A DNA stretch of 64,000 nucleotides from Acidobacteriaceae bacterium (GTDB taxonomy: Bacteria > Acidobacteriota > Terriglobia > Terriglobales > Acidobacteriaceae). A program made the position numbers and the translations under genes. Every line of letters starts with the position of its first letter. Position 1 is the stretch's first letter. A model generated the notes under the pieces. It was not told the DNA's origin. It saw only the letters and a program-made list of their open reading frames with translations, and ran no database searches. Shown here piece after piece: positions 5,921 through 20,928 of this stretch. The DNA lies in assembly GCA_003139095.1 (NCBI GenBank), contig PLHW01000064.1, forward strand, positions 62,001 through 126,000. The letters run 5' to 3'.

Positions 5921-6817
5921 TCAACCTTTAATGAGGCGGCGCAATTGGCTGCGATTTTTGACGGGCAGGCGATCGAGGGCGGCTTCGGCCAACGCCAGGT
6001 AAACCTCGCGCACATCCGGATATTTACTGAGCAAAGCTAAATGTTCAGCGACCGTGGCAACGTCTCCGCGAATGAAAGGCCCGCTGAAAGAGCCGGCGGC
6101 ACCGAGGGCGGCGTAATTTGTCAGAGTCTGGCGGAGGATGGGAAAACTCATGCGGCGCGCGCTCTCGCGGGTCAGGCCGGCGCCGCGCGCGGCCTCTTCC
6201 ACCGTCGCCAGGTAGGCCACAAACAGCGGAGAGGTCATCGTGGCCCAAGCGTGGTAGGCGGGCTTGCGCTGCGCCGAGAGCAGAAAACTTTCGGAGCTAA
6301 GATCGCGCGCGATGCGGCGGGCAAGGTTCGTGGCCGGGCGATCGCCTTCCAACGCAAACGGCACGCCCGCGAGCGAAGGCTGCGCGCCAGCCACAAACGT
6401 CATCAAGGGATGTACCGAGGCGCTGGCAATGCCGAGTTGGCGCAGAGGCTCGAGTTCGCGGATGGTGAGCGCGCCGCTGGAATGAAACGCGAAGCGGATT
6501 TTCGGCGGGCCGCTGTTGGCCAGAGTTGCGACGCGCTCGGCTAGTGCTCCGGCGGCGTTGCAGATCTCGCGATCCGGGACCGAGAGCCAGAGGAGCGCGG
6601 CGTCAAGGGCGGCGCTTTGCATTGTGACGGCGCGGGCGCCGACTTTCTTCGCCAGCACGCGCGCGCGCGGCCGCGACTGCGGGCGCACGATGATCTCGGT
6701 GATGGTGTAACCGGCTTCGGCGAGCGCGGGCGCGAGAGACGAGGCAAGACGTCCGCAGCCCACGATCGCTACTGTTCTCTTCGGATTCCGTTCCGTTCGG
6801 CTCACCCGTCGCAGCAT
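5921..6817 (-). CDS. DUF2520 Rossmann-fold dehydrogenase-like protein
   Basis: A 298-residue protein with an N-terminal NAD(P)-binding fold (V-A-I-V-G-C-G-R-L-A-S-S-L near residue 16), a middle F-H-S-S-G-A-L segment, S-V-H-P-L-M-T-F, and a helical C-terminal domain. This is the layout of the Rossmann-like plus DUF2520 family, related to ketopantoate reductase and 6-phosphogluconate dehydrogenase folds. The substrate is unknown. It is convergent with ribA and divergent from the Nudix gene; only 43 bases separate its start from that gene, so the promoters overlap. Confidence 0.8.
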   Translation of the reverse strand: MLRRVSRTERNPKRTVAIVGCGRLASSLAPALAEAGYTITEIIVRPQSRPRARVLAKKVGARAVTMQSAALDAALLWLSVPDREICNAAGALAERVATLANSGPPKIRFAFHSSGALTIRELEPLRQLGIASASVHPLMTFVAGAQPSLAGVPFALEGDRPATNLARRIARDLSSESFLLSAQRKPAYHAWATMTSPLFVAYLATVEEAARGAGLTRESARRMSFPILRQTLTNYAALGAAGSFSGPFIRGDVATVAEHLALLSKYPDVREVYLALAEAALDRLPVKNRSQLRRLIKG

Positions 6818-6860
6818 ACATGAATATTGCTATCCTTGAAAAAGGTAGAAGCGAGGTATT

Positions 6861-7481
6861 GTGAAAGCGAGAAGGGTTGACATGGTGAAATCGGCAAAAT
6901 CTGCGGCAGCAAAATCGGGGAAAGCGCGTGTCATTTCTTCCCGGCTGGCATTTAAGGGGCCCGTCTTCCAGGTCACGACCGATATGGTCGAAGAGCCGGG
7001 AGGGATACGGGCGCGGCGCGATGTCGTCCGCCATTCCGGGTCGATCGTAGTGCTGGCGGTGGAGGAATCGGGAAGCGGAAAAAGCAGCGGTTCGGCCGAG
7101 CCGCGCATTCTTCTCGAGCGCCAGTACCGCCATGCCGCGCAATCGATGATGTGGGAGTTGCCCGCCGGACGAATCGACGAAGGCGAATCGGAGCTGGCGG
7201 CGGCGCGGCGCGAGTTACTCGAAGAAACGGGTTACACGGCGCGAAAGTGGAAGAAAGTTCTGCGCTTTTATGTGAGTCCGGGATTTCTCGACGAGACGAT
7301 GACTATCTACCTGGCGCGCGATCTTAGAGCCGGAGAAGCGCAACCGGAAGCGGACGAGAAGATTGCGATTCACCTCGTCCCTTTGTCCGAGGCTCGGGAA
7401 ATGGCGCGGGACGGGCGGATTCGCGACGCGAAGACGATTACCGGGGTGCTATGGCTATCGGAGACCTACTCCGACGCGTAG
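6861..7481 (+). CDS. Nudix hydrolase, ADP-ribose pyrophosphatase-like
   Basis: A complete Nudix box is seen (G-R-I-D-E-G-E, then R-R-E-L-L-E-E-T-G-Y after seven residues). It is preceded by L-L-E-R-Q-Y-R-H and W-E-L-P-A-G, the pattern of ADP-ribose pyrophosphatases of the NudF type. The enzyme would hydrolyse ADP-ribose or related nucleoside diphosphate sugars. GTG 6861 is chosen, with GAGG five bases upstream; an ATG seven codons on is an alternative. The length of 206 residues is normal for the family. Confidence 0.85.
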   Translation: MKARRVDMVKSAKSAAAKSGKARVISSRLAFKGPVFQVTTDMVEEPGGIRARRDVVRHSGSIVVLAVEESGSGKSSGSAEPRILLERQYRHAAQSMMWELPAGRIDEGESELAAARRELLEETGYTARKWKKVLRFYVSPGFLDETMTIYLARDLRAGEAQPEADEKIAIHLVPLSEAREMARDGRIRDAKTITGVLWLSETYSDA

Positions 7482-7577
7482 GCCGTATAGGGCTATTGTT
7501 ATGGTTGCGTGCGGATACGAGTAAGTCATCTTCTCAAGATCGCCTGAACGGCAAACATGGGTATGTGACGCGTACCC

Positions 7578-7606
7578 TTGACAGTATTTTTCTCCCCCAT
7601 CACAAT
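7578..7606 (+). promoter_or_regulatory. Predicted sigma-70 promoter of the cold-shock gene
   Basis: TTGACA at 7578-7583 is followed after 17 bases by CACAAT at 7601-7606. This gives a leader of about 55-60 bases before the GTG at 7668. Cold-shock mRNAs often carry leaders; this one is short, so thermal control by the leader is uncertain. Confidence 0.5.
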
Positions 7607-7667
7607 TGCGGCAAAATTGGAGACCTTTGGAATTGAGATTCCGGGGGCCTCAAGGGGGAAAGCGCAC

Positions 7668-7877
7668 GTGGAACGACTGAAAGGCACGGTGAAGTGGTTC
7701 AACAACGCGAAGGGATACGGGTTCCTGGGCCGCGACGAAGGACCGGATGTATTCATCCATTACAGCGCGATCACCAGCGACGGCTATAAAAGTCTGCAAG
7801 AAGGCGACAAGGTTGAGTTCGAGATCGTCCAGGGCCAGAAAGGGCCGCAAGCAGCCAACGTAACCAAGCTCGCCTGA
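7668..7877 (+). CDS. Cold-shock domain protein
   Basis: A 69-residue single cold-shock domain with RNP1 K-G-Y-G-F-L and RNP2 V-F-I-H-Y, binding single-stranded RNA or DNA. GTG 7668-7670 is chosen because the strong ribosome site AAGGGGGAA lies just upstream and the resulting length matches the family. A longer upstream frame would run through the promoter and leader. Tyr replaces the usual His/Phe at the end of RNP2 (H-Y-S-A-I), a tolerated change. It stands alone between unrelated genes. Confidence 0.92.
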
Positions 7878-8132
7878 TCCGGAAGCCTCCTCCCCCGGGC
7901 CGGAAAATTTCATCGGGAGTCCTATCTTTGTTTCCTTGGGTGAGGCGCCATCCCCTCTCTTGAAAGCGCGAGCCATTCCCTGGGCGCCGTCACATTCTCC
8001 TGCCACCGCCTCCTGCCACCTTCCAGCCGTCGCGTGACTTCGCAAATCTTGTACTATGTGTGACGAGGCTGATGCTGCGCTCGCCAGAGCGCGGAATTTT
8101 GGCCGCAAGCCTCGGAGCGGAGCTGACGATTC

Positions 8133-9410
8133 GTGGGACTGCCCCAACACAAAATTGCGCCGCAGCGCGAACAGGGATTTCTGATCACCCTGGTGGCAAT
8201 CTTCATGTTGTTTGTGGTGGGGGCAATGGCGGCGCTGTCCATCGATGTGGTGACCTTTTATACGGCGCGAAGCGAAGCGCAACTGGCGGCCGACTCGGCG
8301 GCGCTGGCGGGGGCGCGGATGCTGGCGAATTCGGGGATTACGTCGTCGACCGATGCGACCCTGGCGGCCACGGCCCAAATCATGTGCCAGAACATCGCGA
8401 CGCAAATTGCAAAAGCGAACCAGATTAGCGGACAAAGCATACCTTCGGGGCAGATTTCCGCCAATTGCAATGTCGCGTCGCAAAGCAGTCCGACCGTCAC
8501 GGTGCAGGTGCAAGTGAATTTGCCGACATTTTTCGCGCGCATCTGGGGAACGAGGCAGGTATCGATCGCGGCGTCGGCGACTGCCGAAGCCTACAACGCG
8601 TCTGGAAATCCTGGGACTTCAAGTTCGCTCGGGCCGCCGGTGGCGCCGCTGTGCGTGAAGCCGTGGCTGCTGCCGAACCTCGATCCAATCACGGGAACCG
8701 CGATTTTCGATTCTTACGGACACATCGCCGACCCAAGCTTGTTAGGCTATGGTCCGAGCACTGTGCAACCCATTTGTACGACGTGCTCGCCTATGCCCTA
8801 CCCACCCGTCGTCTGGGAGTATTACCCTGGGGATCCTTTGACGACCTTCCCTCCTCCGACGACGTCGCTGCCGAGTTGCAATCCGGTGTTAAGCACCAGT
8901 TACCAGGAGAGTCTGGCGGGCTGCGTACAAACCCCGATCTCATGCCGCCAGACGGCGAACATCGACACCAGCACCTACGCTGCCCGCCTTGCGGACACCG
9001 CTGACGCGGTGAACTGCCTCACCCATGCCACAGGAACGGGCGGAGGAGATACGTTCGCGCCCACAAATCCGCCGAGCGCGCCTTTTGAATTTCTTGTGGG
9101 CTCGGACAATCCTCTATTGAGCGGATCCGCGCCATTGGGAAGCAGCGTGATGGTCAGCGATTCGCTGGTCACGGTGCCGGTGTTCGACCCAACCGGCTTT
9201 AGCAGCACCTCGACCAGCGTGCCGATCATCGGTTTCGTGCAGCTGTTCCTCAACCCCAGCGGCTCCGAGACTCCGGTTTCTGGACCAGGCTACGGGTATG
9301 TACCCGTCACCGTCGTCAACATGGTGGGTTGCGCGGGAACCAATCCCAACGCGGTTCCCATCATAGGCAACGGCGCGTCGCCGGTTGCGGTGCGGCTGAT
9401 CAGCCACTGA
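8133..9410 (+). CDS. TadE/TadG-like pilus-assembly or secreted protein
   Basis: A 425-residue protein with one N-terminal membrane helix (about residues 16-40, L-I-T-L-V-A-I-F-M-L-F-V-V-G) followed by Y-T-A-R-S-E-A-Q-L-A-A-D-S-A-A-L-A-G-A, the hallmark of the Tad (TadE/TadG) N-terminal region. The remainder is Ser/Thr/Pro/Gly-rich, with several Cys pairs, and is predicted to lie outside the membrane. GTG 8133 is the only sensible start, with GGAG about 9 bases upstream. No other tad genes are next to it, but an orphan Flp pilin lies at 23150-23317. It may contribute to a surface fibre; its exact role is unknown. Confidence 0.75.
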   Translation: MGLPQHKIAPQREQGFLITLVAIFMLFVVGAMAALSIDVVTFYTARSEAQLAADSAALAGARMLANSGITSSTDATLAATAQIMCQNIATQIAKANQISGQSIPSGQISANCNVASQSSPTVTVQVQVNLPTFFARIWGTRQVSIAASATAEAYNASGNPGTSSSLGPPVAPLCVKPWLLPNLDPITGTAIFDSYGHIADPSLLGYGPSTVQPICTTCSPMPYPPVVWEYYPGDPLTTFPPPTTSLPSCNPVLSTSYQESLAGCVQTPISCRQTANIDTSTYAARLADTADAVNCLTHATGTGGGDTFAPTNPPSAPFEFLVGSDNPLLSGSAPLGSSVMVSDSLVTVPVFDPTGFSSTSTSVPIIGFVQLFLNPSGSETPVSGPGYGYVPVTVVNMVGCAGTNPNAVPIIGNGASPVAVRLISH

Positions 9411-9467
9411 GAAGAGAAGGTCGGGGCAATTGAGGAACTTTCTTATGGGGAAAAGGCAGGGAGCGAA

Positions 9468-10559
9468 TCAGTTGCCGGGTTCTCGGCGGGACAGGATGAC
9501 GCGCTCAATCGCGAGTTCATCGCCGACAAAAATGAAATTGTAGGGCGTTCCGTTTAGGAGCGCCGAGAGCACGTCACGGGCTGGGCCCGGACCGAGGTCG
9601 GCGAACACTCTTTCCTGCTCGGCGCCCGCGGGGATGGGAATTTCCGCCTTGGTGCGAAGATGCACCTCGTAAAGCACCTGCGACAGCGTTGCCCTGCTGG
9701 CGTGAATGCGCAGCAGGCCGCCCTCATAGGTTACGTCGAGCAGCGTCGGCGCGTCGGCGGAGGGCACGGAAGTGGCAGCTAGTGCGGGCGCAGATCCCAC
9801 GGTGGGCGCGGACGCTGCCGGCGGCGGGGGCGGGGAAATTGACGCTGTTAAATTCGGCGCGACCGCAGAGGGCGCTGCGGGTTTCGGCGATATTAAATTG
9901 GGCACGGCCCCAGAGGGCGCGGCCGCCTTCGGCGGGACAACCGCGGAAACTCGCGGCGAGACGCTGGCCGGCGTAACGTGCGCCACGGGGATCGACGGAC
10001 TTTTGGCCAGCGCATCCTGCAACCGCGCAGGATGGGGCGCGGGCACATTGGCAATCTGGTTTTGATTTCCATCCGCGGGCGGCAAGCCGAGTTTCACCAC
10101 GGTCGAGTTTGCGTCCGTCGTAATTTGATAGGCCAGCGGGCCCGTCAGGTCGAGCACAATGCGGGTGATGGGCGGATTGCTGAAAAACAGTCCGGAGCGA
10201 ACGCCCTTGAGCGCGCCGCGATTCAACTTCAGCGCGCGCAACTCCGCCGCAGGCACCGCGCCGGGAAAATCCACCACGATGCGATCCGGTCCGGTAATGG
10301 CCTGCGTGTTGGGCGAGGCCGCGCCCGAGGTTTGAATCTCCACTTCAAGCGCTGCGCCGCTGTCGCGCACCAGCACGTGCTGAACGGTGAGCTGCGGACT
10401 GGCGGCGCTCGAAGCCCCACCTTTCTCGGCCGCGCTTTGCGGATTCGAGCTTTCCGATTGCGCGCGTTGAGCCGTTGCGCGATTGGCCAGCCACGGGAGC
10501 GAGAGCAATAAGGTCAACCAGAGCGCGCAGTGGAAGCGGCGGAACATCGGGGACTCCAA
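9468..10559 (-). CDS. AMIN-domain exported protein with secretin-type N domain
   Basis: A 363-residue exported protein: signal peptide (residues about 8-31), AMIN domain at about 55-155 (V-Q-H-V-L-V-R, then D-R-I-V-V-D-F-P-G), a long Pro/Ala/Ser linker (160-280), and a C-terminal STN-like domain (L-L-D-V-T-Y-E-G-G-L-L-R-I). AMIN domains target proteins to peptidoglycan, and PilQ secretins combine AMIN and STN. Here the secretin barrel is missing, so it is not a pore. A role as a cell-wall or pilus accessory factor is an inference. An ATG four codons later is an alternative start. Confidence 0.75.
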   Translation of the reverse strand: MESPMFRRFHCALWLTLLLSLPWLANRATAQRAQSESSNPQSAAEKGGASSAASPQLTVQHVLVRDSGAALEVEIQTSGAASPNTQAITGPDRIVVDFPGAVPAAELRALKLNRGALKGVRSGLFFSNPPITRIVLDLTGPLAYQITTDANSTVVKLGLPPADGNQNQIANVPAPHPARLQDALAKSPSIPVAHVTPASVSPRVSAVVPPKAAAPSGAVPNLISPKPAAPSAVAPNLTASISPPPPPAASAPTVGSAPALAATSVPSADAPTLLDVTYEGGLLRIHASRATLSQVLYEVHLRTKAEIPIPAGAEQERVFADLGPGPARDVLSALLNGTPYNFIFVGDELAIERVILSRREPGN

Positions 10560-10994
10560 TGCAGAAGTCTAGCAGCGATGCCAGCGAGACGGAAAACCGA
10601 AGGTCCTAGAACCGCTGGCAGCGCGATTACCGGCCTAGGAGTCGGCTGGACCCAATTGGAAACGCGATGGTTATTCGCCGCGAAGGTAACTTCCCTGATG
10701 ACCGCTGCAAAATGCAGTACGCCCTTTTGCTCTACAGAACGCATTAGCAAAATGCGACGGCAAGCAGATCGCTGCGTTTTGTAAGTTGTTGACGCTCGGT
10801 CCAACCTGCTGATTCTTCGATATTGCCTCCCCGCCAAAAAGTTTGGCATGCGCGTGCACATATAAAGGTGTGAAACAGGCAATGCGAGCGAGAACCGTGA
10901 ACCCGAAAGCACCGGCCGAGCTTGGAGCGAGTCGCGATCACGACGCAAACCTGAAAAATCCGGGTTGTGAAACAGCCCGGCAGAGGAGGAGCGT
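10560..10994. other. Intergenic region upstream of the redox operon
   Basis: 435 bases between the divergent AMIN gene and the GcvH-like gene. Short frames here have no protein character. The repeated words TGCAAAATGC (10708-10717) and GCAAAATGCG (10747-10756) are seen. A strong ribosome site (AGAGGAGGAGCGT) precedes ATG 10995. No confident promoter or riboswitch was found. Confidence 0.5.
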
Positions 10995-11663
10995 ATGTCG
11001 ATTCTTTTCGTTCTGTTGATGTTCCTGGTGATCATCACCGTAAGTTATTTCCGCTCGCCGGAAGCGTTTGAACTGGCCGCGCGGCCGCAGCCTGCGCTCA
11101 GACCGATGGCCGCTCCAAAGATGGAGACGAGCGTCGGCTTGTCGTTTCCGCAGGGCTACTCGTTTCATCCCGGACACACCTGGAGCGTAAAGGAAGGGCC
11201 GGACGATGCCCGCATCGGCATCGACAGCTTTGCCGTTAACCTGATTGGCGAGATCGACAAGATTGAAGTCATCGGCGAGAACCGCTGGGTGCGCCAGGGG
11301 CAAAAGGTGATGACCGTGCACAGCGGGAAAACAGCTATTGACCTGGTGGCGCCAATTGAAGGCGTGATCACGGCCATTAATCGCGAGGCCATTGAAGACC
11401 CGAAGATGATCGTGCGCGATCCCTACGAAAAGGGATGGATTGCAATGGTGAAATCGCCCGACCTGCTGGTCAACCAGAAAAATCTGGTGCAGGGTGCGAT
11501 GGTCGCTCCGTGGATGCAGAACAACCTGACGCGCCTGACCAACATGGTGCCGGAGATGGCGCCCGCCATGGCCGCCGACGGTGGTTTGCCGCACGCTGGA
11601 CTGCTGACGCGGGTTTCGCCCGAGGTTCGAGAGGACATGCTGAAAGAGTTCTTCCTGCTGTAG
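10995..11663 (+). CDS. Membrane-anchored GcvH-like (lipoyl-domain) protein
   Basis: A 222-residue protein with an N-terminal membrane helix (about residues 3-19) and then a GcvH fold. H61-T-W matches the H-E-W of GcvH, I-G-E-I-D-K-I-E-V matches L-G-D-I-V-F-V-E-L, and S-G-K112-T-A-I-D-L-V-A-P-I-E-G matches the lipoyl-lysine motif S-V-K-A-V-S-D-L-Y-A-P. K112 falls on the lipoylated lysine. It is the first gene of an operon with a ferredoxin and an NrfD/HybB-like protein, not with gcv genes; the genuine gcvH lies at 17139-17519. It could be a lipoyl redox carrier attached to a respiratory module. Fold assignment is fairly sure; function is inferred. Confidence 0.8.
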   Translation: MSILFVLLMFLVIITVSYFRSPEAFELAARPQPALRPMAAPKMETSVGLSFPQGYSFHPGHTWSVKEGPDDARIGIDSFAVNLIGEIDKIEVIGENRWVRQGQKVMTVHSGKTAIDLVAPIEGVITAINREAIEDPKMIVRDPYEKGWIAMVKSPDLLVNQKNLVQGAMVAPWMQNNLTRLTNMVPEMAPAMAADGGLPHAGLLTRVSPEVREDMLKEFFLL

Positions 11664-11732
11664 GACCCGGGTGCGGCGGGATAAGCCCCGCCGTCGAGAG
11701 ACAAGAAAGTTCTCCGCAAAGGAGAGGAGATT

Positions 11733-12512
11733 ATGGAACGCACAAGAGCAATCCTGGTGGACATTACGAAGTGCATCGGCTGCCGGAGCTGCGAGCAGGC
11801 TTGCAAACAGGCGCACGGATTTCCGACAGCTAGCGAGGCGAAGCTTTCGCCAACGAACCTGACCGTGATTGAAGAGCACGGCGAGAAGTTTGTACGCCGG
11901 CTCTGCAATCACTGCCAGGAGCCGGCCTGCGCCTCGGCCTGCCTGGTGGGCGCGTTGAAGAAAACGTCACTGGGGCCGGTCACATACGACGGCAGCAAGT
12001 GCATCGGCTGCCGTTACTGCCTGGTGGCATGCCCGTTCAGCGTGCCGCGGTACGAGTGGTCGAAGCTGGTGCCCTATGTCAAGAAGTGCGACATGTGCTC
12101 GGCGCGGCAGGTGAAGGGGCAACCGCCCGCTTGCGTCGAAGCCTGCCCCACGGGCGCCTCGACGGTGGGCTGGCGCGACGAGATTCTGGACGAAGCGGAA
12201 CGCCGCATTCTGGGCGGCGGGTATGTGAAGCACATTTACGGGAGCGACGAGGCAGGCGGCACATCGGTTTTCTTCATCTCTGACGTGCCCTTTGAGAAGC
12301 TCGGCTTCCCTGCCCCGCCCAAGCAGTCGATGCCGGTGCTGACCGCGAACGCGCTCGGCGACGTGCCGACGGTGGTGCTGGTCGGCGGCAGCCTGCTCTC
12401 CGGGCTTTACTGGATCACGCAGCGGCGCGAAGCGGTCGCGCGGGCCGAAGGAAACGTCGCATATCCCCGGCCGCGTTTTACCGCGAACGATGACGACGAG
12501 AAAAGGAGCTAG
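11733..12512 (+). CDS. Four-cluster ferredoxin subunit (HybA/DmsB/NrfC type), membrane-anchored
   Basis: A 259-residue electron-transfer protein with four Cys groups: C14-I-G-C-R-S-C-E-Q-A-C, C-N-H-C-x4-C-x3-C, C-I-G-C-R-Y-C-L-V-A-C-P, and C-D-M-C-x8-C-x3-C-P, enough for four [4Fe-4S] clusters. A C-terminal hydrophobic segment (V-P-T-V-V-L-V-G-G-S-L-L-S-G-L) may anchor it, as in HybA. Unlike HybA it has no twin-arginine signal, so the clusters may face the cytoplasm. It would pass electrons between the quinone-reactive membrane partner encoded two bases downstream and an unknown catalytic subunit. AAAGGAGAGGAG precedes the ATG. Confidence 0.88.
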   Translation: MERTRAILVDITKCIGCRSCEQACKQAHGFPTASEAKLSPTNLTVIEEHGEKFVRRLCNHCQEPACASACLVGALKKTSLGPVTYDGSKCIGCRYCLVACPFSVPRYEWSKLVPYVKKCDMCSARQVKGQPPACVEACPTGASTVGWRDEILDEAERRILGGGYVKHIYGSDEAGGTSVFFISDVPFEKLGFPAPPKQSMPVLTANALGDVPTVVLVGGSLLSGLYWITQRREAVARAEGNVAYPRPRFTANDDDEKRS

Positions 12513-12514
12513 TC

Positions 12515-13711
12515 ATGTTACGCAAACTGTCCAATTTCAGTCTGCCGAAGATTACTTTGTGGCGCACGATTGTGGCGCTGATCATGGTCGCGGGGCTGTA
12601 TGCGACCTACGCGCGGTTTGCCATGGGCTTTGCGCGAGCCACGCATCTGACCGACGCGCAACCCTGGGGCCTGTGGGTGGGCATCGGCACACTGTGCGGA
12701 GTCGGACTCTCCGCTGGTGGATTCGCGATCGCGGCCGCGGTTTATCTGCTTGGCTTCGAGCGCTATCGTCCGGTGCTGCGCGCCTCGGTGCTGGTTTCTT
12801 TTCTCGGCTATTCGAGTGTGATCGCCGGCATGATGTACGAACTCGGCCTGCCGTGGCGCATCTGGCATCCCATCGTGATGTGGAACCGCGCCTCGATGCT
12901 GTTCGAAATTTCCTGGTGCGTGATGCTGTATTCCACCGTGCTGGCGCTGGAGTTTTCGCCGGCGCTGGTCGAGAAGATTCCCTGGACCGGCGTTCGCAAC
13001 TGGTACTTGAAGTGGCACCATGAAATTCTTATCGGCCTGGTCATGGCGGGCGTCGTGCTCTCTTCCCTGCACCAGTCGTTTCTTGGCGGACTCTACCTGC
13101 TGACGAAGGGCAAGCTCGATCCGCTATGGTATAGCCCGAATCTGACGACGCTCTTTTATCTTTCGGCGATCCCAGCGGGGCTGGCGGTCACCATCATGGC
13201 GCTGTATCTTTCCATCCGCTCGCTCGACGTGAAGCTGGATCCGAAGATTCTGTCGGAAGTGAGCCGGGTGATCGCGCCCCTGCTGGCGATCTACGGCATC
13301 TTCCGCGTCGTCGATCTCGCCAAGAACGAGGCGCTGCCCTACCTGTTCATGTGGCGGGAAGAGACGCTTTCCTTCTGGCTGGAAGTCGCGCTGCTGGTGA
13401 TTGCGCCGATCGTGCTGCTGAGCATCGATAAGGTGCGCAACGATCCGCAGAGGCTGTACTGGACCTGCGCGGTGATTGTGGGCGGATTTATGACGAACCG
13501 CGTGGACGTTTCGGTGACCGGATTGCAACGCAGTTCCGGCGTTTATTACGTGCCGCAGTGGACGGAATTTGCGGCCACACTGATGGTGATGACGCTGGCA
13601 GCATTGGTCTTCCGGTACGCAGTGATCTACCTGGATATTTTGCCGAAGAACACAGCAAAGATGCCGCCGCGGTTTCGGTGGGCGATGAAAGGCGCTGCGG
13701 CGGAAGCATAA
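12515..13711 (+). CDS. HybB/NrfD-family integral membrane protein
   Basis: A 398-residue protein with about ten membrane helices, of the PsrC/NrfD superfamily and closest to HybB: P-W-G-L-W-V-G near residue 49, G-G-F-A-I-A-A-A-V, W-H-P-I-V-M-W-N-R-A-S, H-Q-S-F-L-G-G-L-Y, and a late N-R-V-D-V-S-V-T-G-L. These proteins exchange electrons with menaquinone or ubiquinone at the membrane. It begins two bases after the ferredoxin stop, with AAAGGAGC as ribosome site, so the pair is a unit. No hydrogenase or molybdopterin catalytic subunit is nearby. A terminator follows at 13736. Confidence 0.88.
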   Translation: MLRKLSNFSLPKITLWRTIVALIMVAGLYATYARFAMGFARATHLTDAQPWGLWVGIGTLCGVGLSAGGFAIAAAVYLLGFERYRPVLRASVLVSFLGYSSVIAGMMYELGLPWRIWHPIVMWNRASMLFEISWCVMLYSTVLALEFSPALVEKIPWTGVRNWYLKWHHEILIGLVMAGVVLSSLHQSFLGGLYLLTKGKLDPLWYSPNLTTLFYLSAIPAGLAVTIMALYLSIRSLDVKLDPKILSEVSRVIAPLLAIYGIFRVVDLAKNEALPYLFMWREETLSFWLEVALLVIAPIVLLSIDKVRNDPQRLYWTCAVIVGGFMTNRVDVSVTGLQRSSGVYYVPQWTEFAATLMVMTLAALVFRYAVIYLDILPKNTAKMPPRFRWAMKGAAAEA

Positions 13712-13735
13712 CACCCACAGCATCGTTCACCAATC

Positions 13736-13770
13736 AGCCCCCGGGGGTCGGACGCCCCCGGGGCTTTTTT
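13736..13770 (+). terminator. Rho-independent terminator of the redox operon
   Basis: A GC-rich hairpin with arms AGCCCCCGGGGG and CGCCCCCGGGGCT (a one-base bulge, loop TCGGA) is followed by six T. It lies 25 bases after the NrfD-like stop. Confidence 0.85.
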
Positions 13771-13889
13771 GTGAACGCGACAAGCCGCCAATTCTGGCGG
13801 CTCACAAAAGGCGCTCTTGGAAGTCATGGAGCACGCCGACACCGCGAGGTACAAGCAGAAGGAAGCGGCGCGCGCGCAACACGCGTGAG

Positions 13890-15380
13890 TTAAGCTTCCG
13901 GCTTCCAGCGCAGCACCGGTTTGCGCGCGGCGGCGACTTCATCCAGGCGCGAGATGCGCGTATTGTGTGGCGAATCGAGCACGAACTGCGGATCTTCTTC
14001 CACCTCGGCTGCAATCGATTTCATCGCTTCAATGAAAAGATCCAGCTCTTCCTTCGGTTCGCTCTCGGTCGGCTCGATCATCATCGCGCCGGACACGATC
14101 AGTGGAAACGCGGTCGTGTAGGGATGGAATCCGTAATCGATCAGGCGCTTCGCGATGTCCATGGTGCGCACGCCTTTCTTCGCCTGCACTTTATCGCTGA
14201 AGACGACCTCGTGCATCGAACGCGTGGAATACGGCAAGTCGTAGGTGCCTTCGAGCCCTTTGCGAATGTAGTTGGCGTTGAGCACTGCGTCTTCGGTAGT
14301 CTGGCGTAGGCCGTCTGGTCCGTTTGCAAAAATGTAGGCGAGCGCGCGGACGAACATTCCAAAGTTGCCGTAGAACGCGCGCACGCGCCCCACCGACTGC
14401 GGCCGGTTGTAGTCGAAACCGAGCGTCCCGTCCGCCTTGCTGACAACAACGGGCTTCGGCAGAAACGGCTCGAGAATTCTCTTGACGGCAACCGGCCCCG
14501 ATCCCGGACCCCCGCCGCCGTGCGGCGTCGAAAAAGTTTTGTGCAGGTTGAGGTGCATCACGTCGACGCCAAAGTCGCCGGGCCGCGCCTTGCCGACCAG
14601 CGCGTTCATGTTGGCGCCATCCATGTAAAGCAGGCCGCCCTTGGCATGCATGATCTCGGCAATCTCGTGAATGTCATGCTCGAAGACGCCGAGGGTATTG
14701 GGATTCGTGACCATGAGCGCCGCGACATCTTCATTCATCTGCGCGGCGAGCGCGGCCACATCCACCATGCCGCTTTCGTTTGACTTCAGGTTCTCAACCG
14801 CATAGCCAACCATGGCGGCGGTTGCGGGGTTCGTCCCATGCGCGGAATCGGGAATCAGAATTTTTTTGCGCGGATGGCCCTTCGAATGATGATAGGCGCG
14901 CACCATCAGCAGCCCAGTAAGTTCGCCATGCGCGCCAGCCGCGGGCTGGAGCGTGATCGCATCCATGCCGGTAATTTCGATCAGGCAATCGCTGAGCGTT
15001 TTCAGAATGTGCAACGCGCCCTGCGAAATTTTCTCCGGCTGGTACGGATGCCCGTTGGCTAAGCCCTCAACGCGCGATACGAATTCGTTCACGCGCGGGT
15101 TGTACTTCATGGTGCAGGAGCCGAGCGGGAACATGCCAAGGTCGATGGCGTAATTCCACGTCGACAGCCGCGTGAAATGCCGGATGATCTCGATCTCGCT
15201 AACCTCGGGCATGGTTCCCAGGTCTTTGCGCTCCTGTTTGCCAAGCAGCTTCGAGGTATCCACTTCCGGCACGTCCAGCGGCGGCAATTTCCACGCGGCT
15301 TTGCCCGGAGATGACTTTTCAAAAATCAGCCCTTCATTCTGGCTGATGTGGCGCGTTGCCTTGCGGGTCATGTGTTTCAT
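13890..15380 (-). CDS. gcvPB: Glycine dehydrogenase (decarboxylating) subunit 2
   Basis: The PLP-bearing half of the split P-protein, which decarboxylates glycine and passes the aminomethyl group to lipoyl-GcvH. The PLP-lysine motif H-L-N-L-H-K-T-F-S-T-P-H-G-G-G-G-P-G is present, as is L-G-S-C-T-M-K-Y-N-P. ATG 15378-15380 gives 496 residues, normal for GcvPB; the open frame upstream has no family character, and ATG 15369-15371 is also possible. It is the last gene of the minus-strand gcv group, after the zinc-knuckle gene. Confidence 0.93.
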   Translation of the reverse strand: MKHMTRKATRHISQNEGLIFEKSSPGKAAWKLPPLDVPEVDTSKLLGKQERKDLGTMPEVSEIEIIRHFTRLSTWNYAIDLGMFPLGSCTMKYNPRVNEFVSRVEGLANGHPYQPEKISQGALHILKTLSDCLIEITGMDAITLQPAAGAHGELTGLLMVRAYHHSKGHPRKKILIPDSAHGTNPATAAMVGYAVENLKSNESGMVDVAALAAQMNEDVAALMVTNPNTLGVFEHDIHEIAEIMHAKGGLLYMDGANMNALVGKARPGDFGVDVMHLNLHKTFSTPHGGGGPGSGPVAVKRILEPFLPKPVVVSKADGTLGFDYNRPQSVGRVRAFYGNFGMFVRALAYIFANGPDGLRQTTEDAVLNANYIRKGLEGTYDLPYSTRSMHEVVFSDKVQAKKGVRTMDIAKRLIDYGFHPYTTAFPLIVSGAMMIEPTESEPKEELDLFIEAMKSIAAEVEEDPQFVLDSPHNTRISRLDEVAAARKPVLRWKPEA

Positions 15381-15394
15381 AAAGTATTTGTCCG

Positions 15395-15607
15395 TCAGTG
15401 TTTTCCCGTTAGTTCGAGATCGATGATTTCCGGCGGCGGCACCATCCATGCGCCTGTGCCATTGCAAGTCGGACAAACGCCGGTCCCCGAGCAACTGCGG
15501 CACTTCGCCTGCTCCTCATTGAGGTGGACGTTGATGCCCGAACCATCGCATTGCGCGCATTTGCCGTCGCCGAAGCAAGCAGTACAGCGATTTCTGGATC
15601 CGATCAC
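15395..15607 (-). CDS. Small DnaJ-type zinc-knuckle protein between gcvPA and gcvPB
   Basis: A 70-residue protein with four C-x-x-C pairs in the DnaJ central-domain style ([30 protein letters not shown]), binding two zinc ions. It has no J domain. Its ATG overlaps the gcvPA stop (ATGA at 15604-15607), and gcvPB starts 14 bases after its stop, so it is translated within the operon. A role in folding or assembly of the split P-protein is a reasonable guess from position only. Confidence 0.75.
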
Positions 15608-16980
15608 CGCAGCGCCTCCGCGGGTTCGGCCTCTTTCACGTCCACCGAGCGCTCGCTATCGGCAACGAGGCCGACAGCCGTGTCGATCATCGACCGCGTG
15701 GTCAGTTCCGTGCAGCACCACAGCGCGGCGTTGCCGAGTTCCGGATAAAACTTTTTAAGCGGCAGCCCGCCGACAATTTTGTGGCCGAGCAGGCGCGAAT
15801 TGATGGCGTGAGGCTCTTCGGTCGTCTCCACCACAAATTCGTTGAAGCGCGGCGCCACCGAGAACAGCACATTCGCGTGGCGGCCAAACTGTGCAGCCGC
15901 GTAGGCAGTCTTGGCCAAATTCTGTTTTGCCAATTCGCGCAGGCCCACCTTGCCGTAGATGGTCATGAAGATGTTCACCATCAGCGCGACCAGCGCCTGG
16001 TTGGTGCAGATGTTCGAAGTGGCCTTCTCGCGGCGGATGTGCTGCTCGCGCGTGGCCAGCGTCAGCACAAACCCGCGCTTGCCATTTTTGTCGGTGGTCT
16101 GGCCGGCCAGGCGCCCTGGCATTTGGCGCACGAATTTTTCTTTCGTCGCCATCACGCCGCAGTACGGCCCGCCAAAACCGAGCGGCACGCCGAACGACTG
16201 CGCCTCCATCGCCACAATATCGGCGGCGCGCGGCGGCTCGACAATCCCGAGCGAGACGGCCTCCGCAATCGAAACAATCAGCAGCGCTCCACGCTTGTGC
16301 GCGATCTCGGCCACGGCCTCTACATCTTCGATGGTGCCGAAGAAATTCGGCGACTGAATCAGCACGCAGGCCGTGTATTCTCCTACCGCTGCTTCGAGCG
16401 CGCCCAGGTCAATCCGTCCCGAATCGCGGTACGCAATAGTGGTCAGCGGAATCCCCTGATGGGTGGCGTAGGTTTCGATCACTTCGCGGTACTCGGGATG
16501 CAGCGTCCGCGCAATCACGGCGTGGTGTTTGCCCGTGATGCGGACGGCCATCATCACCGCTTCCGCGGCGCCCGTAGAGCCGTCATACATCGACGCGTTC
16601 GCCAGGTCCATGCCGGTCAGCTCGGCAACCATGGTTTGAAATTCGAAGATCGCCTGGAGCGTGCCCTGCGCATACTCGGCCTGATATGGCGTGTAGGAGG
16701 TGAGAAACTCCCCGCGCTGCACTAGCGCGTCGATGACGACCGGACGATAGTGCGAGTACGCGCCCGCGCCCAGAAAGCTGGTCAGGCCATCGCCATTTTC
16801 CTTGGCGCGCTGTTTGAACCAGTCGACGATCTCGGATTCCGCCATCTGCCGCGGCACTGCCAGATCGCGGTCGAGCCGATACTTCTCCGGAATCGGCGAG
16901 AAAAGATCGTCAATGGACTTCACGCCGATCGCCTTGAGCATGGCTTCACGATCGGTAGGGGATTTCGGTAGATATCTCAT
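15604..16980 (-). CDS. gcvPA: Glycine dehydrogenase (decarboxylating) subunit 1
   Basis: The 458-residue N-terminal half of the split P-protein. Typical segments are [41 protein letters not shown], and [11 protein letters not shown]. With GcvPB it forms an alpha2-beta2 enzyme. Its stop overlaps the next start by four bases. The long plus-strand frame at 15781-16725 is only a shadow. Confidence 0.95.
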
Positions 16981-16984
16981 AGGA

Positions 16985-17135
16985 ACCTAGATTGGATGAC
17001 GGTAGAAGCTAAAACGATTGTTGCGAGTGCAGAAGTCAGAATGCAGAATGCAGAAGTAAAAACCTTCGCTTCCAGCCGCATCGTTGGCACCTGGCGGTCT
17101 TACTTCTGACTTCTGACTTCTAACTTCTGCAATGC
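16985..17135. repeat. Intergenic word-repeat inverted sequence (AGAAGTCAGA family)
   Basis: Between gcvPA and gcvH the left part repeats words such as GCAGAAGTCAGAATGCAGAA, and the right part (17100-17130) holds the reverse complements ACTTCTGACTTCTGACTTCT. The arms can pair imperfectly across about 50 bases. The same vocabulary is used at 18890-18990 on the other side of gcvT. Confidence 0.8.
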
Positions 17136-17138
17136 TTT

Positions 17139-17519
17139 TCAGTGTCCTGCCTCTTCGCTTACGAATTTTTCGTAGTCGGCGGCCGAGAGCAGCACGTTGA
17201 GTTCGGCCGGGTCTTTCACCGCGATTTTGACCATCCACGCCGCGTGCGCGTCTTTATTGACGTTTTCGGGAGAGGTCGCGAGCTCGCCATTGACCTCGGT
17301 CACCGTGCCCGAGGCGGGCGCGTACAAATCCGATACAGCTTTCACCGACTCGACGGTGCCAAACGTCTTGCCCGCCGTGAGCTCGGTGCCAACTTTTGGC
17401 AGCTCGACAAAAACGATGTCGCCGAGCGAGTCCTGGGCGTGAGTGGTGATGCCGACTTTACCGTCGCTCGAAATCCACTCGTGTTCTTTTGTGTATTTGC
17501 GGTCAGTGGGATAAGACAT
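17139..17519 (-). CDS. gcvH: Glycine cleavage system H protein
   Basis: A 126-residue lipoyl carrier that shuttles the aminomethyl intermediate between GcvP, GcvT and dihydrolipoamide dehydrogenase. H-E-W-I-S near residue 14 and the lipoyl motif E-S-V-K-A-V-S-D-L-Y-A-P are intact, and length is normal. It lies between gcvT and gcvPA on the same strand, but separated from both by repeat-rich spacers of about 130-160 bases, so the gcv genes may not all be on one transcript. Confidence 0.96.
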   Translation of the reverse strand: MSYPTDRKYTKEHEWISSDGKVGITTHAQDSLGDIVFVELPKVGTELTAGKTFGTVESVKAVSDLYAPASGTVTEVNGELATSPENVNKDAHAAWMVKIAVKDPAELNVLLSAADYEKFVSEEAGH

Positions 17520-17553
17520 TCGCTTTTAGCTCCTGGCTGCTAGCTTGGTTTTT

Positions 17554-17650
17554 GTAGCGCCGCCGTCCCGGCGGCTGTCGTGGCGGCGTCCTCGCCGCCA
17601 CATCCGAGGGCGAGACGCCCTCGGGACAGCCGGCAAGATGCCGGCGCTAC
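17554..17650. repeat. 97-bp GC-rich imperfect palindrome between gcvH and gcvT
   Basis: The sequence opens with GTAGCGCCG and closes with CGGCGCTAC. Inside are nested hairpins CCGTCCCGGCGG, GGCGGCGTCCTCGCCGCC and GAGGGCGAGACGCCCTC, and GGCTGTC pairs with GACAGCC. It ends two bases from the gcvT stop. It resembles REP-like or MITE-like intergenic repeats and could form a stable RNA structure. Confidence 0.75.
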
Positions 17651-17652
17651 CC

Positions 17653-18813
17653 TTACTTTTTCGGCCGCTTATAAAAAGGAGTCGGCACAACCTGCGCTTT
17701 CACGCCCTGGCCTCGGATTTCCACGCGCACGGTGCTGCCAACTTCGACATGCGTCGGCGGCACGTACGCGAGCGCGATGTTCTTCTTCAAAAACGGCGCC
17801 GGCGATCCGCTCGTGACGTAGCCAATTTCGCCGCCATCCTCACCGAGCACCTTATAGCCGTCGCGCGCAATGCCGCGCTCCACCATTTCGAGCCCGACCA
17901 GCGTGCGCTTCAGGCCCTCTCCGCGGGCTTTTTCGAGCGCGGCGCGGCCGATGAACTCGGGCTTGTCCATTTTGCACCAGCGCTCGACCCCAGCCTCCCA
18001 GACGTTGATCGTATCCGAAATTTCGTGGCCATAGAGCGGCAGCTTGCCTTCGAGGCGCAGCGTGTTGCGCGCGCCCAGGCCGCAAGGCACCACGCCAAAT
18101 TCCTTGCCCGCCTCCAAAATCGCGTACCACACTTGCGCGCTCGTCTCTTCGTCGGGCGGAATATAAATCTCGAATCCATCTTCGGCGGTGTAGCCGGTGC
18201 GGCCCATCAGAATATTTTTCAGTCCGCAGACTGTGCCGCGCGTCACCCAGTAAAACTTCACCGCGCCCAGGTCCGCGTCGGTCAGCTTTTGCAGCACGTT
18301 GACGCCCTTCGGCCCCTGAATCGCAATTTGCGTGAAGTCATCGGAGAGATGCTCGACTTTGCAATCGAACTGGCGCGTATTGTCGCGCACCCAGTTGAAA
18401 TCCTTTTCGCGTGTGCCGGCGTTGATGACGAGGAGATATTCCTCTTCGCCCAGGCGGTGCACGATCACGTCGTCGACGAAGGTGCCTTGCGGGTAAAGCA
18501 GCGCCGAATATTGCGCCTGGCCGATGGCCAGCTTGGCAGCGTCGTTCATCGAAATGTGCTGCACGGCATCGAGTGCTTGCGGCCCGGCGAGGCGAATGTC
18601 GCCCATGTGGCTGACGTCAAAGATTCCAACGCCCGTGCGCACGGCCATGTGTTCGTTGACGATTCCGCAACCGATGGAGGCGGGGTATTCAACCGGCATG
18701 TCCCAGCCGTTGAACTCGACCATTTTGGCGCCCATCTGGCGATGGACGGCATTGAGTGCGGTTTTGCGGACGGGCGCGGGCAGATCGGGCGGAATGGCGG
18801 AGGCGGCGGACAA
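17653..18813 (-). CDS. gcvT: Aminomethyltransferase, glycine cleavage T protein
   Basis: A 386-residue T protein transferring the methylene group from GcvH-aminomethyl-lipoyl to tetrahydrofolate. F-N-G-W-D-M-P-V-E-Y, F-D-V-S-H-M-G-D, Y-T-A-E-D-G-F-E-I-Y and the closing R-G-Q-G-V-K-A-Q-V-V-P-T-P-F-Y are typical. It is the promoter-proximal gcv gene on the minus strand. No glycine riboswitch is recognisable in the 230 bases upstream. Confidence 0.95.
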   Translation of the reverse strand: MSAASAIPPDLPAPVRKTALNAVHRQMGAKMVEFNGWDMPVEYPASIGCGIVNEHMAVRTGVGIFDVSHMGDIRLAGPQALDAVQHISMNDAAKLAIGQAQYSALLYPQGTFVDDVIVHRLGEEEYLLVINAGTREKDFNWVRDNTRQFDCKVEHLSDDFTQIAIQGPKGVNVLQKLTDADLGAVKFYWVTRGTVCGLKNILMGRTGYTAEDGFEIYIPPDEETSAQVWYAILEAGKEFGVVPCGLGARNTLRLEGKLPLYGHEISDTINVWEAGVERWCKMDKPEFIGRAALEKARGEGLKRTLVGLEMVERGIARDGYKVLGEDGGEIGYVTSGSPAPFLKKNIALAYVPPTHVEVGSTVRVEIRGQGVKAQVVPTPFYKRPKK

Positions 18814-18889
18814 GACAAAACCTCGGTCGGCAGCGGCAACCTGCCAGAATCTGAACTGACTACGTTAACACCTGCGCACGAAAAGCGGC

Positions 18890-18990
18890 AAGGAAAGCAA
18901 GGCAAAAGTCAGAGGTCGGAAGGCAGAAGCAAAGTCAGAGGCCCGCGCCTTGGAGGTTTTCACTTCTGCAATCTGACTTCTTAATTCTGA
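18890..18990. repeat. Intergenic word-repeat inverted sequence (second AGTCAGAGG copy)
   Basis: Words AAGTCAGAGGTCGGAAGGCAGAAG and AAAGTCAGAGG on the left face ACTTCTGCAATCTGACTTCTTAATTCTGACC on the right. The vocabulary matches 16985-17135. It occupies the divergent spacer upstream of gcvT, so it may overlap the operon's control region. Confidence 0.75.
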
Positions 18991-19046
18991 CCACGCATTA
19001 CCTCGGTGACGTTCTCCGCCGGCGCCGGGCGCTCTAGACTCAAGCC

Positions 19047-19250
19047 ATGTCCTCGAAACCGGGCGTCAGCCGAATCGTTTGCGCACAGTGCGAGCAGCCG
19101 GAGAGAAGCTGCTGGTGCGACAGATTCTGTGTTTTATGCCAGTCGCAACTCGACATTCGCCTCTGCACCGACGGCCTGATGTACTGCGAAGCCTGCCGCA
19201 TGGCTTGCGACTACAAGACGGCGGATCAGGCGGATGGCGCGCGCGCGTAA
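19047..19250 (+). CDS. Small Cys-rich zinc-ribbon protein
   Basis: A 67-residue protein with eleven Cys arranged as C-A-Q-C-E, C-W-C-D-R-F-C-V-L-C, C-T-D, Y-C-E-A-C-R-M-A-C, probably binding two or more zinc ions. No enzymatic motif is present. It is convergent with the mutase gene, 13 bases apart. It is probably a lineage-specific protein; its function is unknown. Confidence 0.65.
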   Translation: MSSKPGVSRIVCAQCEQPERSCWCDRFCVLCQSQLDIRLCTDGLMYCEACRMACDYKTADQADGARA

Positions 19251-19263
19251 CGGGAGCGACGCC

Positions 19264-20910
<1,647 letters not shown>

Positions 20911-20928
20911 ACCACACCCTTTCAATGA

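Follow-up and report, generated by a model that had tools for sequence, protein, structure and literature searches.

The 64,000-nucleotide stretch of an Acidobacteriaceae genome analysed here (the window, which lies on contig C53; the genome measures 5.53 Mb) carries a trio of genes encoding a protein with the fold of the glycine-cleavage H protein GcvH (hereafter GH), a ferredoxin-type iron-sulfur (FeS) protein and an NrfD-family membrane protein. Our analysis supports the placing of this GcvH-fold protein in a quinone-linked FeS-NrfD unit that is conserved in acidobacterial relatives. The reading that we favour, to which we give about an even chance, is that the trio is a menaquinone-reactive FeS-NrfD module of the HybA/HybB (HmcB/HmcC) type with a non-lipoylated, cytosol-facing GcvH-fold subunit. 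The unit is undescribed in the literature searched, in which we found no paper pairing a GcvH-like protein with NrfD, archaemetzincin with glycine cleavage, or GcvH with HybB. An earlier note on this DNA had taken the trio for an operon in which GH would carry lipoate; the operon is borne out by what follows, and the lipoate is not.

Conservation of the unit and folds of its proteins

In the clade of GH proteins to which the window copy belongs, 29 of the 35 members have the GH, FeS and NrfD genes in direct order. GH is paired with a more distant NrfD in L055, L057 and L112 (hydrogenase genes lie alongside in L055 and L112), stands at a contig edge in L045, and has neither FeS nor NrfD in L056 and L106. 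Antisense frames had masked FeS or NrfD in five loci of this clade, which were recovered by blastp; partner counts in the wider map of 132 loci (loci with identical GH sequence merged) may be too low through the same masking. Among 50 single-copy loci the distances of GH correlate with those of FeS and NrfD at 0.88 and 0.85, respectively, against a permutation maximum of 0.24, all uncorrected for shared ancestry. Ratios of non-synonymous to synonymous substitution rates, computed against three orthologues, are 0.17-0.23 for GH, 0.09-0.10 for FeS and 0.09-0.18 for NrfD, and all three genes are under purifying selection.

The AlphaFold2 (AF2) model of GH (mean predicted local distance difference test score, pLDDT, 89.5) consists of a membrane helix, a GcvH barrel and tail helices, and the N-terminal helix noticed earlier falls within a hydrophobic N-terminus of residues 1-24. 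A Foldseek search with this model gave 22 matches at E <= 0.001, all of them GcvH or GcvH-like (1onl, template modelling (TM) score 0.91 on the target). Lys112 of GH aligns with the lipoyl-lysine of GcvH, so that both the fold and the position of this residue are as the earlier note had them. The lysine itself is poorly conserved, an outcome that the earlier note had named as speaking against its reading. The three nearest orthologues (75-76% identity) have Glu, Glu and Asp in this column, and among 147 distinct GH homologues (proteins outside 150-450 aa excluded) it holds Gly in 110, Ser in 8, Asp in 8, Ala in 5, Lys in 4 and other residues in 12. On a quick maximum-likelihood tree built without the Lys112 column, the five rows with lysine (the true gcvH and four GH) need five changes between lysine and not-lysine, which indicates that the GH lysines arose separately; support on this tree is weak at 59 of the 145 inner branches.

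Residues H61, W63, G75, G102, P120, G123, N129 and W148 are common to GH and the gcvH of the window, whereas D77, W98, R100, Q101, P143, G147 and D195-G196-G197 of the tail are specific to the GH family. The conserved motifs of the family are H61, W63, G75, D77, a WxRQG stretch, PxEG, N129, DPYxxGW and a C-terminal tail DGG...FFL. Of our two family alignments, A2 leaves out six of 45 sequences (two true gcvH and four truncated GH), and A1 comprises 25 of the remaining 39. Against the gcvH equivalog model TIGR00527, GH scores 67.0 bits, below the cut-off of 115.85, and the branch separating the GH family from gcvH has a length of 2.66, flagged as long and unsure. We also considered that GH might be a local duplicate of the adjacent gcvH, and rejected this in view of its distant branching and of the full-length members found throughout the phylum.

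The third protein is of the NrfD type, as previously noted, and exceeds the cut-off of PF03916 (55.2 bits against 25.8). Its AF2 model (pLDDT 82) matched ActC of alternative complex III with a TM score of 0.75 on the query; ActF was also matched, and PsrC more weakly. A sequence search of solved structures with this protein gave no match at 0.001. It is identical to E. coli HybB at 105 of 383 aligned positions, and residues R89, Y99, E148 and H184 of the HybB N-side channel (R89, Y99, E146 and H186 in the window) do not vary among the 31 family members aligned. Replacement of these four residues is reported to have reduced H2 oxidation in E. coli (PMC8076601). Others among the 25 listed HybB residues differ; D58, T63 and S105, for example, are replaced by G, V and G. 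The window NrfD would probably also translocate protons.

Membrane side and electron transfer

In the reading that we favour, the N-terminal helix would tether GH to the membrane with its domain in the cytoplasm, where, as a subunit on that face of the module, GH would most likely have a docking or regulatory role. Electrons would pass through the FeS protein between a donor or acceptor in the cytosol and the quinone site of NrfD, the subunit that probably also moves protons. We infer that the three products form a complex, that its quinone is menaquinone and that electrons may reach it from ferredoxin. Ferredoxin would be the most plausible cytosolic partner because genes of 2-oxoacid:ferredoxin oxidoreductase adjoin several homologous loci; KorA and KorB are no further than 6 kb from GH in 16 and 18 of the 132 mapped loci, respectively.

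With respect to the side of the membrane, 129 GH proteins have a clear helix, and charge bias favours an inside location of the domain in 93 of them and the opposite side in 26. Pfam also places a receiver domain after the N-terminus and before GCV_H in L208:7429-8556 and L232:7723-9030; the N-terminal helix of these two fusions matches the GH profile weakly (independent E-values of 0.004 and 0.029). Together, the fusions and the charge bias favour a cytoplasmic GH domain. A further receiver-GcvH stretch was seen at L232:5972-7837.

Several observations weigh against the favoured reading. The window trio encodes no catalytic subunit or redox partner, and the ferredoxin link comes from the neighbours of paralogous loci, with none at the window. 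Both the Kor and the hydrogenase links are minorities. No labelled partner was found within 6 kb in 35 of the 132 loci, some of which are contig edges or have a partner masked by an antisense frame, and a second GH of the same genome, also without the lysine, stands alone on contig C31. A Tat-like (twin-arginine translocation) signal occurs in 8 of 67 related FeS proteins (open reading frames (ORFs) longer than 380 aa excluded, as were those that lack the first Cys motif), in which the FeS domain is thus probably periplasmic, opposite to the side proposed for GH. For the helix of the FeS proteins, the charges favour neither side, with 24 against 23 and 12 equal (n=59).

As a separate observation, 2-oxoacid:ferredoxin oxidoreductase genes stand just 5' of the GcvH-like gene, on the same strand, in L065, L066, L071, L072, L073, L081, L082 and L123.

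The wider GH family and its regulatory genes

In a scan of genome contigs with patterns from window-like members, the best 80 of 135 relatives comprised 79 with Acidobacteriota titles and one with a Bacillota title. Among the matches listed in plasmid searches (in one case 20 of 112 records) there were gcvH, hybB and stretches without annotation only. Within 6 kb of GH, the 132 loci contain FeS together with NrfD in 64, NrfD in 76, a histidine kinase in 49, an NtrC-type regulator in 49 and archaemetzincin in 31, and at least one of the last three in 61; these gene families are single-linkage clusters whose domains were verified for representatives only. A full operon of the order GH-FeS-NrfD-(GH)-kinase-NtrC-archaemetzincin recurs in L058, L162, L196, L199, L205 and L206, and domain searches confirmed the kinase, the sigma-54 activator, Peptidase_M54 and Kor subunits in L162.

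Many of the kinases have haem c-type motifs in their first 260 residues: CxxCH in 37 of 50, CxxxxCH in 36 and both in 35 (kinases shorter than 300 aa excluded), which suggests covalently bound haem. A sigma-54 motif upstream of GH was found in 26 of 142 regions at up to one mismatch (shuffles 0.2; in-gene control 0) and in 52 of 142 at up to two (shuffles 2.95; in-gene control 8), and 18 of the 26 one-mismatch sites are located 65-81 bases before the GH start. The motif belongs mainly to the second large GH clade (16 of 62 at one mismatch, 38 of 62 at two). With a loose score, observed and expected numbers of sites differed little (127 against 116.75 for GH; 25 against 27.1 for FeS-first operons), the stricter mismatch count having been applied to GH upstream regions only.

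Archaemetzincin is a protease for which we know of no clear role in bacteria. It is over its cut-off in 23 of 25 GH-positive relatives and in 0 of 36 GH-negative ones, one of which has a match below the cut-off. In a sample of 297 genomes from the phylum, 45 have both GH and archaemetzincin, 30 GH only, 31 archaemetzincin only and 191 neither (45 of 75 GH-positive against 31 of 222 GH-negative), figures uncorrected for phylogeny. Since true gcvH matches the GH profile too, 292 of the 297 match it; a genome was counted as GH-positive at a best E <= 1e-28, a threshold that loses some diverged GH.

The genome of the window has a fuller kit elsewhere. On contig C45, L235:6137-11618 is an operon of FeS, NrfD, kinase, NtrC and archaemetzincin genes with no GcvH-like gene next to it. 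The sensor part of its kinase scores 26.8 bits against Mcp40H-20_sensor, just below the cut-off of 27; we take this model to represent a haem sensor of Geobacter-type chemoreceptors. Upstream of the GH gene on C31, at -73, lies a sigma-54-like site with two mismatches, and a sigma-54 gene is present; pattern sites at up to one mismatch number 154 in this genome against 107 in the reversed control, and no regulon was defined from them. The window trio is thus a paralogous version that has neither the regulatory genes nor a sigma-54 site. Upstream of it the best sigma-54 candidate has three mismatches, at -237, and a search there for a sigma-70 promoter found none.

For the family as a whole we propose, tentatively and as possible rather than probable, that a GcvH fold stripped of its cofactor was reused, in a so far undescribed membrane redox system of Acidobacteriota, as a cytosol-facing subunit coupling NrfD quinone complexes to a circuit of two-component proteins, sigma-54 and archaemetzincin. 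Respiration and its own regulation would then be joined in one module, of which the window trio would be a specialised copy with the electron-transfer core only.

A serious rival for the whole family, with less support at the window trio and on balance unlikely, is that GH is mainly a part of signal transduction, in a redox-signalling circuit around the FeS-NrfD module and the quinone pool. A kinase with haem motifs would sense redox state, NtrC would switch on GH through sigma-54, archaemetzincin would degrade a component, and either the kinase or the complex would receive feedback from GH. The frequency of regulatory neighbours, the haem motifs, the near-threshold score of the kinase in the same genome, the receiver-GcvH fusions, the enrichment of sigma-54 motifs and the co-occurrence with archaemetzincin all agree with such a circuit. 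It has to contend with the window trio, which has no kinase, regulator, protease or sigma-54 site beside it, and with the window clade, in which the sigma-54 motif is upstream of 0 of 34 at up to one mismatch and of 1 of 34 at two. In addition, eight kinases beside trio-type loci are without both haem motifs (all are short), archaemetzincin is missing from the 30 GH-only genomes and occurs in 31 that have no GH at the threshold used, and plain control of the complex by a kinase system predicts the identical neighbourhood.

Known systems and the setting of the trio

The closest known systems are HybA/HybB of E. coli hydrogenase 2 and HmcB/HmcC of sulfate reducers, with which the trio shares the order FeS then NrfD, a four-cluster FeS protein with a C-terminal hydrophobic segment and the NrfD residues of the proton path. 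Unlike them, it falls below the cut-offs of all four NCBIfam models (FeS: HmcB 245.6 bits against 420, HybA 185.8 against 263; NrfD: HmcC 258.6 against 550, HybB 213.1 against 450), has the additional GcvH-like protein, and has an operon devoid of hydrogenase and multihaem cytochrome genes. The description of the second protein as a four-cluster ferredoxin without Tat signal holds, there being no Tat motif at its N-terminus, in contrast to MNRRNFIKAA in E. coli HybA.

These resemblances suggest another explanation, in which FeS and NrfD are an orphan HybAB-type module whose catalytic enzyme is encoded at another place in the genome, with GH acting in assembly or maturation. The best scores of both proteins are against these models, the trio has no catalytic gene, and hydrogenase genes adjoin GH and NrfD in L055 (where Pfam confirmed the hydrogenase) and L112. 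An FeS protein without Tat signal would be unfit for a periplasmic, HybOABC-like partner, co-export with a partner being possible, and the NrfD proteins linked to hydrogenase share just 32% identity with that of the window. We regard this explanation as distinctly unlikely.

Three kinds of NrfD complexes are found beside the GH family: HmcBC-like, Qrc, and [NiFe] hydrogenase with a HybB-like protein. The Qrc-type menaquinone reductase operon of L193:7265-13853 has a lysine-less GcvH-like gene on each side; QrcA (213.5 bits, cut-off 180) and QrcD (588.1, cut-off 570) are over their cut-offs, and QrcB (221.6, cut-off 440) and QrcC (352, cut-off 400) are under them. L060, L194 and L195 resemble L193 by their gene maps alone. 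The window NrfD is also related, more weakly, to QrcD, and QrcA and QrcB are absent from the window operon and the ten flanking ORFs tested. Qrc was already reported in an acidobacterial metagenome-assembled genome (PMC10564751), the main text of which does not contain the terms GcvH or glycine cleavage. In two GcvH-like proteins of L060 (L060:6616-7455 and L060:12294-13247), inspection by eye showed a Cys-rich N-terminal stretch before the GcvH domain, which might bind metal.

LbpA of Hdr-like sulfur oxidation shares with GH a GcvH fold outside glycine cleavage, and the earlier note had compared the two. GH differs in its unconserved lysine, in its membrane helix and C-terminal tail, and in having no Cys in the window copy; LbpA proteins are described as having two extra, strictly conserved Cys with some archaeal exceptions (PMC6067878). 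By Pfam, no hdr-like cluster is present in the ten flanking ORFs (5924-20925), the rest of the genome not having been searched. A search of the genome for two lipoate ligase families, a co-occurrence that the earlier note had proposed to check, gave one LplA/LipB-family ORF on contig C46, one ORF on C14, probably BirA as judged by its neighbours, and none beside the trio. That lipoate on Lys112 would shuttle electrons or sulfur to the quinone module in the manner of LbpA is therefore highly improbable, since the alignment of Lys112, the retained fold and the presence of an LplA/LipB-family gene are outweighed by the rarity of the lysine, its five changes on the tree, the missing Cys and the missing ligase neighbour; on present sequences, a lipoyl function and membership in LbpA are both very unlikely. 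Lys112 of this one organism could still bear a chemical modification.

The features of the trio and of the adjoining operon are collected in Table 1.

Table 1. Features of the trio and of the glycine-cleavage operon next to it
Feature	Coordinates	Strand	Details
GcvH-like protein (GH)	10995..11663	+	222 aa; Pfam GCV_H 8.9e-21
GH layout			membrane helix residues 2-20; GcvH-fold domain ~43-165; helical C-terminal tail, end EFFLL
Lys112 codon of GH	11328..11330	+	aligns with GcvH lipoyl-lysine; close relatives without Lys
Four-[4Fe-4S] ferredoxin-type protein, HmcB/HybA-like	11733..12512	+	259 aa; Pfam Fer4_11 7.4e-20; 16 Cys
FeS protein, further features			no Tat signal; C-terminal hydrophobic segment 207-225
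NrfD-family quinone-reactive membrane protein, HmcC/HybB-like	12515..13711	+	398 aa; Pfam NrfD 1.1e-14
Intrinsic terminator, operon end	13739..13763	+	10-pair stem (9 G-C), then CTTTTTT
Glycine-cleavage P protein, two parts	13890-15503 and 15604-16980	-	
True gcvH (H)	17139-17519	-	
Glycine-cleavage T protein	17653-18813	-	

The three genes lie on one strand and are closed by a terminator, as stated earlier, but they are not evenly spaced; the gaps are 69 bases between GH and FeS and 2 bases between FeS and NrfD. By eye, a purine-rich stretch 5' of each ORF reads as a ribosome-binding site. Terminator-like sites are common by chance too (five found against 3.2 expected from shuffles), and the number of G-C pairs in the stem at the operon end is unmatched by the other four. 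According to the ORF list and Pfam, a convergent glycine-cleavage operon follows directly 3' of the trio. The earlier statement that no glycine gene is present therefore stands for the operon itself and fails for its surroundings, and the true gcvH was correctly placed. Such a neighbour occurs elsewhere only in L043, L044 and L046 among the mapped loci, which looks like local synteny. Behind gcvT, on the same strand, ORF 19264-20925 encodes a methylmalonyl-CoA mutase (Pfam 1.6e-235).

Because of their fold match to GcvH, proteins such as GH are likely named after glycine cleavage, a name that would hide a recurrent partner of NrfD. If the favoured reading is confirmed, a cofactor-free GcvH-fold subunit would be added to the energy-conserving quinone complexes, archaemetzincin would gain a testable genomic context, and Acidobacteriota would gain a candidate route from ferredoxin to menaquinone.

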